Shown: one piece after another, positions 14,048 through 16,147 of the stretch
Numbering within the stretch: position 1 is the first letter of the stretch
How the letters are laid out: every line of letters starts with the position of its first letter
DNA from: Chitinophaga pinensis
GTDB lineage: Bacteria; Bacteroidota; Bacteroidia; NS11-12g; UBA9320
DNA length: 64,000 nt
Assembly (NCBI GenBank): GCA_945897885.1
Contig: CAMDGU010000001.1
Coordinates: forward strand, 1 to 64,000
Direction: 5' to 3'
The notes under the pieces: model-generated
Told to the model about the DNA's origin: nothing
What the model saw: only the letters and a program-made list of their open reading frames with translations
Databases searched by the model: none
Position numbers and translations under genes: made by a program

Positions 14048-14100
14048 ATTAATTAGGAATTTTCAATTAGGAATCTGGAATTAACGTAACTCAATAACTT

Positions 14101-14536: not shown

Positions 14537-14603
14537 GTTAACTACAAATTAGGAATTAGGAATCTGCAATTAGGAATGTCGAATTCGAATTACGAAGTTT
14601 TTT

Positions 14604-14659
14604 AACCTTTCTACTTTAACCTTTCTACTTTAACCTTTTAACTTTAACCTTTTAGTTTT
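14604..14659. repeat. 14-bp tandem repeat, four units
   Basis: Units of aacctttctacttt begin at 14604, 14618, 14632 and 14646, the last two diverged. The final unit overlaps the stop codon of the convergent SixA-like gene. The segment before it (14545-14580) has three aattaggaat-type words also seen at 14050-14085. Confidence 0.8.
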
Positions 14660-15146
14660 TAACTTTCTTCGGCCAACTATACCATTCCAGTTTTCCTTTG
14701 TGGGCTGCTATTTCATCCCAGCTATCTATATCAAATGTAAAAATTCCCATACCGCAAGTTGGCAAGTCATCAATGGTAGCATTTCCAATATAATTGAAGA
14801 GCTCAGTAATACCTGGGTTGTGGGCAATTATTGCTAAATAATCTACTGCCGCATTGGTGTGGGCTATTTCGTATAAAAGAACCTTATATGAGGCAAGGTA
14901 TAATTTTTCAAAACTTTCAATTTTTTCTTTTTTCCAGTTAAGGTGATTAGCTAAATGTTTGGCAGTTTGCCTGGTTCGCTTGGCAGCGCTTATTTTTATT
15001 AAGCCGGGCATAAATTTTACTTTTTTTAAACGGTCACTCATCAGCTCGCAATCTTCTTCACCGCGGTTGGTTAGCCTTCTTTCAAAATCATTGTCAAATC
15101 CGTGTTGTTCGGTTTTGGCATGGCGAATAAGGAGAAGATATTTCAT
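14652..15146 (-). CDS. SixA-like histidine phosphatase
   Basis: 164 residues. It begins MKYLLLIRHAKTE, the RHG-type motif of the histidine phosphatase superfamily with nucleophile His9. AAKRTRQTAKHLANHL carries a conserved Arg and IIAHNPGITEL the second catalytic His. Size and the AHNPG motif fit the small SixA branch, which removes phosphate from phosphohistidine or small substrates in the cytoplasm; target unknown. It is convergent with the SHOCT gene and its 3' end runs into the 14-bp repeat. A TAAATTTG box (15161-15154, minus strand) lies 8 bp before the start. Confidence 0.88.
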   Translation of the reverse strand: MKYLLLIRHAKTEQHGFDNDFERRLTNRGEEDCELMSDRLKKVKFMPGLIKISAAKRTRQTAKHLANHLNWKKEKIESFEKLYLASYKVLLYEIAHTNAAVDYLAIIAHNPGITELFNYIGNATIDDLPTCGMGIFTFDIDSWDEIAAHKGKLEWYSWPKKVKN

Positions 15147-15211
15147 GATGCCGCAAATTTAAAGGCTTTGACAGATTAAAAGAGATTATTTTTTAGCAAT
15201 TAGCTGCGATT

Positions 15212-15440
15212 GTCATCCCGACAATAGGAGGGATCTAGTTTGGTAGATAAGAGATTCCTCGTGCCTCGGAATGACAAGGGGGTGGAATGACAAAAATTGC
15301 GATCGTCATCCCGACAATAGGAGGGATCTTGTTTGGTGGATAAGAGATTCTTCGTGCCTCGTAATGACAAGGGTTGTAGAATGACAAATACTCGGAATGG
15401 CAATGGCTGCGATTGTCATCCCGAGGCACGAGGGATCTCA
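15212..15440. repeat. Left array of 64-bp palindromic repeats (two complete copies plus a left half)
   Basis: Complete copies lie at 15212-15275 and 15305-15368, each starting gtcatcccga and ending (g)aatgac. The two ends are imperfect inverted complements (~24-bp arms with several mismatches) around a loop containing gtttggtRgataagag. The copies repeat with a 93-bp period, separated by a 29-nt spacer that itself contains a ggaatgac remnant. At 15415-15440 there is only the left half (gtcatcccgaggcacgag...), after which the GIY-YIG gene region begins. The 331-bp stretch 15147-15477 holds no other gene; minus-strand open frames across it are translations of the repeat. Confidence 0.92.
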
Positions 15441-15456
15441 AGTGTCATGATTTTTT

Positions 15457-15464
15457 TAATTTTG
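15457..15464 (+). promoter_or_regulatory. -7 promoter box TAATTTTG of the GIY-YIG gene
   Basis: Exact TAnnTTTG match 13 bp upstream of the ATG at 15478, inside the split palindrome. No clear TTTG -33 element at normal spacing. It indicates that the element could carry its own promoter. Confidence 0.4.
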
Positions 15465-15477
15465 AAATAAAAATCTT

Positions 15478-15789
15478 ATGAAACCAATAGGAATGCATAA
15501 TTACTATGTTTACATACTGACCAATTCATTAAAATCAGTTTTGTACATTGGTGTTACAAATGATTTATATAGAAGATTAAAAGAGCATTATCAGGATTCT
15601 AAAACTGAAAAGAAGACGTTTGCCGGTAAATACAATTGTTATAATCTTATTTACTATGAATATTTTCAATTTATTAATCATGCAATTGATAGAGAAAAGG
15701 AGTTGAAGGCTTGGAGAAGGTCAAAGAAAGTTGAATTGGTAGAGAATGTAAATCCAGATTGGAAATTTTTGAACGATGAAATTGAGTGA
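15478..15789 (+). CDS. Single-domain GIY-YIG nuclease
   Basis: 103 residues, essentially one GIY-YIG domain. Visible are YVY (10-12) and YIG (23-25), NDLYRRLKEH with conserved Arg32/33 and His37, and the REKELKAW helix with the metal-binding Glu (73 or 75). The C-terminal NPDW matches the UPF0213/YhbQ-like small family. All expected catalytic residues are present, so it should be active on DNA, but no target is known. A Met at 15493 is an alternative start. There is no second domain that would give DNA specificity. The gene lies between the halves of a palindromic repeat and starts 62 bp after the 5' half begins. Its role in spreading those repeats is inference. Confidence 0.88.
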   Translation: MKPIGMHNYYVYILTNSLKSVLYIGVTNDLYRRLKEHYQDSKTEKKTFAGKYNCYNLIYYEYFQFINHAIDREKELKAWRRSKKVELVENVNPDWKFLNDEIE

Positions 15790-15800
15790 TTTTTTATTAT

Positions 15801-16020
15801 GGTAGATAAGAGATTTCTATTGCCTCGGAATGACATTGCCTCGAAATGACAAAGTTTGCGATTGTCATCCCAACGAAAGGAGGGATCTTGTTTGGTAGAT
15901 AAGAGATTCCTCGTGCCTCGGAATGACAAGGGGGTGGAATGACAAAAATTGCGATTGTCATCCCGACGAAAGGAGGGATCTTGTTTGGTGGATAAGAGAT
16001 TCCTCGTGCCTCGGAATGAC
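15801..16020. repeat. Right array of palindromic repeats (right half plus two complete copies)
   Basis: Directly after the GIY-YIG stop is a right half only (15801-15834), followed by a 16-bp tandem duplication of its end (15835-15850). Complete 64-bp copies lie at 15864-15927 and 15957-16020, again with 93-bp period and the same 29-nt spacer as the left array. The first copy of each pair has ggtagataag and the second ggtggataag, whereas acaatagg versus acgaaagg distinguishes left from right array. From 16021 to 16147 there is a last ggaatgac remnant, a run of eight G at 16089-16096 and an AT-rich leader to the next gene; I see no gene there. Confidence 0.92.
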
Positions 16021-16147
16021 AAGGGGGTGGAATGACAAATTGCTGGAAAGTCAAATCTAAAAGTTATGTCATATTTCGGTCACGAATAGGGGGGGGTAAA
16101 ATCCACACTTTTTTTAAACGTGTTTCGCCGTCAAAAATTTATAAAAT

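Follow-up and report, generated by a model that had tools for sequence, protein, structure and literature searches.

A small GIY-YIG endonuclease gene and the inverted, dispersed repeats that bracket it probably constitute one system, that is, a dedicated endonuclease together with its own REP hairpins, arranged like a RAYT gene and its REPINs but built around an unrelated enzyme. The gene lies in the window, by which we mean the whole stretch of 64,000 nucleotides that was analysed, and the genome that contains it (G000), Bacteroidota-like as judged from homologues, comprises 3.03 Mb in 126 contigs. A sequence-only reading of this stretch had likened the layout to RAYT/REPIN elements, an analogy that proved apt, as the gene sits between inverted, dispersed REP hairpins and encodes a different enzyme. 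It had also proposed a repeat family, whose members are indeed palindromic and dispersed but resemble the already published CGTC REPs (PMC3733652). CGTC-type REPs (GTCATTGCGAG.., GTCATCCTGAAC.. and similar) are dispersed in many bacterial genomes, and they were reported by Di Nocera et al. (2013) to "apparently lack a dedicated transposase" (PMC3733652).

The unit spans 420 bp (15415-15834) and consists of a 103-codon GIY-YIG gene bracketed by inverted 24-nt hairpin arms, which confirms the earlier placement of the gene inside the halves of a split repeat. The left REP-like arm, GTCATCCCGAGGCACGAGGGATCT (15415-15438, plus strand, GAGG-loop type), is made up of GTC-ATCCC-GAGGCACGA-GGGAT-CT, folds into a 5-bp hairpin (-2.7 kcal/mol), and has inverted matches among the dispersed copies (93% over 27 nt). 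It is followed by TAATTTTG (15457-15464, plus strand), a putative promoter box judged from its sequence only, which we take to resemble the Bacteroidota -7 box TAnnTTTG, and by the gene itself (15478-15789, plus strand, ATG to TGA), whose 103-aa product is UPF0213/COG2827-like. Downstream, a spacer remnant, TGGTAGATAAG (15800-15810, plus strand), identical to the spacer of neighbouring gene-less dimers, precedes the right arm, AGATTTCTATTGCCTCGGAATGAC (15811-15834, minus strand, GAGG type). The reverse complement of the right arm, GTC-ATTCC-GAGGCAATA-GAAAT-CT, has a partly decayed stem with one mismatch, and single-strand folding of this arm gives no stable structure. Sequence comparison places four full gene-less dimers around the gene, all on the plus strand: 15212-15275 (GAC-loop arm, spacer, GAGG-loop arm), 15305-15368, 15864-15927 (with one changed position, CCCAAC), and 15957-16020. 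A solitary half arm (GTCATTTCGAGGCAA on the minus strand) occupies 15836-15850, and the whole REP/GIY block extends from 15193 to 16062. Intergenic 14-bp tandem repeats (AATTAGGAATCTGC, TTTAACCTTTCTAC) adjoin the block at 14051-14085 and 14540-14670.

This layout also suits a homing element, in which the GIY-YIG gene would parasitise CGTC-REP dimers, cutting intact ones, being copied by recombination into their loop and leaving gene-less dimers unmoved. The gene does occupy the loop position of a dimer, the spacer remnant persists beside the right arm, orphan dimers exist without the gene, and GIY-YIG enzymes are classical homing nucleases. Set against this, both arms flanking the gene in the window are of the GAGG type, unlike the mixed gene-less dimers.

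Dimers were found 25 times in G000 with the pattern GTCATNNNGA..TCNNNATGAC, compared with 0 for the reversed control pattern, and an alignment search returned 36 stretches similar to the dimer. The conserved unit is the single 24-nt arm, composed of GTC, a stem strand ATnnn, a loop starting with GA, the complementary strand n'n'n'AT, and then CT. In 21 of 24 dimers a GAC-loop arm is paired with a GAGG-loop arm (heterodimers). The first stem pair is complementary within the arm in 42 of 45 cases, where 15.5 would be expected if the positions were independent, and the variable triplet is common to both arms in just 2 of 21 dimers. A single conserved palindrome of 64 bp was ruled out, since covariation occurs within arms and none is seen between arms; the 64-bp unit is a pair of independent inverted REPs, head to head. 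What stands of the earlier description as an imperfect palindrome is thus a dispersed repeat with inverted halves, whereas the conserved element is the hairpin of each arm.

The same signature extends to arms beside GIY-YIG genes in general. When arms were extracted across GIY loci by their ends alone, with no stem requirement, the three variable pairs were complementary in 134, 137, and 134 of 146 arms (expected 54, 80, and 73). Among 73 distinct 26-nt arms, pairing holds in 92.1% of cells, and cells changed on both sides number 124, compared with 32.7 in shuffles (0 of 500 shuffles reach 124); shifting the stem partner by one base abolishes the signal. Because arm stems covary across GIY loci, selection on a hairpin of the REP kind is indicated. 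This support comes from covariation and not from energy, since the window's arms, folded as single strands, have energies within the usual range of shuffles. An arm from the alphaproteobacteria does form a strong fold (-10.1 kcal/mol, z -4.9).

GIY loci were gathered by protein search alone, blind to their flanks. In the 80 loci that come from named genomes, the density of strict GTC hairpins is 5.57/kb within 0-100 bp of the gene versus 0.09/kb at 1-3 kb, a ratio of about 60. Such a hairpin lies within 300 bp at 56 of 74 loci, including 37 with hairpins on both sides, and where full flanks were available (178 loci) the two arms most often face inward (+/-, 54 loci; others 14, 12, and 9). An inverted repeat scoring at least 12 spans the gene at 121 of 165 GIY loci, as against 6 of 165 random spans from the same loci (P=8e-36); homologues elsewhere thus lie between halves of palindromic repeat families, and the refuting outcome named in the sequence-only reading, flanks without kinship to any repeat family, was looked for and did not appear. 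About one quarter of GIY loci have no clear spanning inverted repeat. The first strict hairpin detector overlooked long-loop arms, and the loci scored as 'none' proved on inspection to carry mostly longer-loop arms or other inverted repeats.

In an outgroup of tRNA-side GIY-YIG genes, a spanning repeat was present at only 2 of 8 loci. Members of this group (L047-L052, L054, L062, L063) adjoin a tRNA gene (Met, Phe, Asp, Lys, Asn, Cys, or Glu) and a terminator, and downstream of them there is often a partial tRNA 3' half, with the T arm replaced by new sequence or a palindrome, and often a second terminator copy. It probably represents a second kind of small element, one associated with tRNA genes.

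Within single genomes, the two arms beside a gene are more similar to each other than to the arms of paralogues in 42 of 50 comparisons (Wilcoxon P 2.8e-8). Since arms match within a gene and differ between paralogues of the same genome, each enzyme appears to have its own repeat type. Furthermore, when mapped on the enzyme tree, the long-stem and short-stem labels require 8 changes, compared with a mean of 32 and a minimum of 26 in 300 shuffles, a comparison that includes host relatedness; yet several genomes hold both clades, each with its matching arm. Enzyme clade predicts hairpin class. The possession of a separate repeat type by each enzyme also tells against the homing element described above, which is the main rival and is weakly disfavoured; we regard it as a distinctly less probable account, although one to be taken seriously. 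Locus L255 (G204:C31:265000-277000) belongs to a genome with 17 GIY-YIG matches, several of them in a tandem-like array with GTCATCCCGACGATAGGAGGGATCT arms.

The reading of a dedicated enzyme with its own hairpins is further informed by where homology ends. Among 26 element pairs at non-orthologous sites, the right homology boundary falls 0 to +2 nt from the arm edge in 14, and the left boundary falls -5 to 0 from the arm edge in 11. In Sinorhizobium meliloti and Shinella (L174/L176), identity runs from the left CGTC through the right GAC, and the pair L089/L207 is a further example of homology ending at the outer arm edges. In G004 and G006, two genomes of the same genus, the flanking genes are conserved and the orthologous space between them lacks the block 15193-16062; G006, empty at this site, has 13 dimers elsewhere. 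The proposal that the halves act as the ends of a 420-bp element was upheld by these boundaries and empty sites, and the comparison of empty with filled orthologous sites suggested with it found the block absent from both sister genomes. Neither a target-site duplication nor a single-dimer insertion event was resolved in these comparisons. A duplicate in Pedobacter (G354) was considered as a clean, arm-bounded transposition and ruled out, because the 536-bp copy overshoots both arms by 64 bp. This sequence occurs twice with 98% identity (L253 1954-2489, L254 1953-2488) and has AATGGCACAC-type edges; it seems nested in a larger repeat, and the GIY/REP cassette may ride there in another mobile repeat.

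The protein belongs to the GIY-YIG nucleases. A profile search matched it to PF01541 (E=2.7e-16) and gave no Y1 match, and its score against TIGR01453 was far under the cut-off of that model. It is the product of the sole small GIY-YIG gene in G000, the two other matches lying in large proteins. Y12, Y23, G25, R33, H37, and E73 are invariant across 17 homologues, and we take the tyrosine, R33, H37, and E73 of the window protein to be its catalytic residues. Its AlphaFold2 model has a pLDDT of 91.7, and among solved structures the closest by profile are the UPF0213 proteins 1zg2 and 1ywl together with SLX1, the last of which is also a relative in fold. With a single domain, a length within about 80-110 aa, and the catalytic Tyr, Arg, and Glu, it can be assigned to UPF0213/COG2827. 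In substantially diverged GIY gene pairs dN/dS is about 0.04-0.17, so that these proteins appear to be kept functional by purifying selection. For the small GIY-YIG proteins of UPF0213/COG2827, neither a function nor an association with repeats was found in the literature searched.

Such a protein might instead be a housekeeping, UvrC-like repair enzyme of UPF0213/COG2827 that processes REP hairpins or cruciforms and adjoins REPs for regulation, not mobility. Caulobacter crescentus, which is listed as a CGTC-positive species (PMC3733652), has three small COG2827 genes, one of which carries an SOS box (PMC1839093), and the SOS box, together with the SLX1-like fold, would suit a repair role. A patchy presence (193 of 296 genomes), with up to 17 copies in one genome, and the occurrence of gene and arms together at non-orthologous sites argue against it, and we consider this explanation improbable.

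The REP-rich genomes do carry Y1_Tnp (RAYT-type) genes, three of them in G000, which raises the alternative that the repeats are mobilised by a resident Y1 tyrosine transposase (RAYT), with the GIY-YIG gene as a passenger. A GTC arm was found within 300 bp of a Y1/RAYT-type gene at 0 of 24 loci in REP-rich genomes, and several Y1 loci carry different inverted repeats of their own; ownership of the GTC repeats by Y1/RAYT enzymes was rejected on these grounds. Moreover, the complete genome G095 contains 51 dimers and no Y1 gene, and the survey of CGTC REPs found no CGTC-flanked tyrosine transposase (PMC3733652), all of which leaves the passenger explanation scarcely credible. In the genus of the window, the repeat on either side of Y1/RAYT-type genes (L265, G000:C7:38280-38624; L267 in G006) is an unrelated one (..GCCCCGTAGGGGCTACC..), and one genome thus seems to house two REP systems side by side, each with a different enzyme.

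It could also be supposed that REPs moved by some other enzyme prefer to insert near dispensable intergenic genes and so settle passively round a neutral GIY-YIG gene. REPs cluster in intergenic space (PMC3733652), and some genomes have them without the gene, as passive settling would allow. It is already strongly disfavoured, and very unlikely in our estimate, given that the arms point inward and match their own partner over those of paralogues, that enzyme clade predicts hairpin class, that homology stops at arm edges, and that the 24 Y1-type genes sharing REP-rich genomes have attracted none of these arms.

Whole-genome comparisons link the dimers to the gene and indicate that the two can part. 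Among 296 class members, at least 3 dimers are present in 34 of the 138 that have a strong GIY match and in 9 of the 158 that do not (odds ratio 5.4, P 4e-6, phylogeny not corrected for). Counts of dispersed arms reached, for example, 153 for Pedobacter jejuensis and 81 for Balneola sp. EhC07, and the reversed control gave 0. Some genomes have many dimers and no small GIY-YIG gene: the 51 similar dimers of G095 (C1; L259, L262) are accompanied by GIY domains only in large UvrC/DnaQ-like proteins, and this complete genome has no small GIY-YIG gene. They represent an orphan REP family, from which it follows that the enzyme is dispensable for dimer persistence and has been lost or acts transiently; dimers can outlive, or move without, a resident enzyme.

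The layout takes its clearest form in alphaproteobacterial loci, where it reads cgtc-ATCCTCGGG-CTTGA-CCCGAGGAT-cca, gene, inverted copy. These arms are canonical CGTC-REPs and lie no more than about 60 bp from the gene in Sinorhizobium meliloti, Neorhizobium, Shinella, Rhizobium, Novosphingobium aromaticivorans pNL2, and Sphingobium; the sample is small (8 of 10 plasmid-collection loci), and two rhizobial loci (L181, L182) have no CGTC arms. Additional plasmid copies in Planktothrix, a cyanobacterium, and Spirosoma sit amid GTCAT-type repeats that the detector of that survey left unscored. On plasmid p1 of Planktothrix agardhii (L178), GTCATTCTGAG repeats surround the GIY-YIG gene, which has a type IIL restriction gene (MmeI) on one side and drmA, a DISARM gene, on the other. 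Labels represented by single metagenome bins (Treponema, Elusimicrobiales, Mesoaciditogaceae, and others) may be binning errors and were not relied on. The recurrence of this layout in such distant bacteria makes the GIY-YIG enzyme the probable driver of a widespread repeat family that had been regarded as having none.

In the mechanism that we envisage, the autonomous copy would be a cassette of about 0.4 kb, [GTC hairpin]-gene-[inverted GTC hairpin], and the gene-less dimers would be non-autonomous relatives of it, in the way that REPINs are related to RAYT genes. The enzyme would recognise the GTC tag and the hairpin when extruded in single-stranded or cruciform DNA, for example during replication, and would cut at or beside the hairpin; a structure-specific substrate is plausible in view of the SLX1-like fold. 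GIY-YIG enzymes hydrolyse DNA and are not known for any joining of strands, so spreading would depend on host repair, which might copy the REP-bounded segment into or from the break in a homing-like gene conversion, unlike the strand transfer of RAYTs. Taken as a whole, we lean towards a hitherto unrecognised, minimal class of mobile elements, in which single-gene GIY-YIG cassettes of this size generate and maintain CGTC-type REP/REPIN families in several phyla by cleaving the hairpin and having host repair copy the segment, a class whose evolution would be separate from that of the RAYT/GTAG system.

The question of which enzyme serves CGTC REPs, a named open one, now has a specific candidate family, whose members are annotated merely as GIY-YIG or UvrC-like nucleases, and tractable hosts make it directly testable. 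The results suggest that two unrelated nucleases have each come to be coupled to REPs in this way; should cleavage be demonstrated, a stand-alone hydrolytic nuclease would sustain a dispersed repeat family without transposase chemistry. Searches confined to open-access papers returned none that connects GIY-YIG genes with REPs, so priority is uncertain.

Among known systems, the closest in the repeats themselves are the CGTC REPs, which have a CGTC or TGTC tag, stems starting with AT, and head-to-head dimers, and occur in Bacteroidetes and mainly in alphaproteobacteria (PMC3733652). The arms described here share the tag and the AT-starting stem (TGTCAT in the window, CGTCAT in alphaproteobacteria), the head-to-head and often heterodimeric arrangement (as in the G000 dimers), and hosts that include Bacteroidetes and alphaproteobacteria. 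The tail after the stem is CT in the window and CCA beside alphaproteobacterial GIY-YIG genes. Published CGTC REPs have an 8-9 bp stem and a 4-5 nt loop, whereas the window arms have 5 bp and a 9-10 nt loop starting with GA; the window arms are therefore classed as CGTC-like, a short-stem variant, while the long-stem arms of many relatives have the published stem and loop lengths. Finally, the CGTC REPs were reported without a dedicated transposase, and here such repeats flank GIY-YIG genes.

With the RAYT/REP/REPIN system (REPtron), the GIY-YIG system shares a small single-gene unit between inverted REP hairpins, many dispersed gene-less dimers, and an enzyme that is matched by clade to hairpin type and usually present in few copies per genome. 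RAYTs work on REP hairpins in their single-stranded form (PMC8266576). They are Y1/HUH transposases (PF01797) with a GTAG tag and strand-transfer chemistry, whereas the present enzyme is a GIY-YIG hydrolase (PF01541) with a GTC (TGTC/CGTC) tag, from which no strand transfer is expected; as enzyme and tag differ, the system is not a RAYT. Other UPF0213/COG2827 proteins (PDB 1zg2, 1ywl; Caulobacter) resemble the window enzyme in fold, size, and catalytic residues but differ in that the window enzyme is linked to REP hairpins. GIY-YIG homing endonucleases of the I-TevI, group I intron type share the catalytic domain and possibly a homing-like spread, while the window gene, free-standing in a REP loop, has REP hairpin flanks and no intron, intein, or DNA-binding tail. 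SLX1, whose substrates are branched DNA, is the nearest well-studied fold, although it serves in eukaryotic repair, carries additional domains and has SLX4 as its partner.
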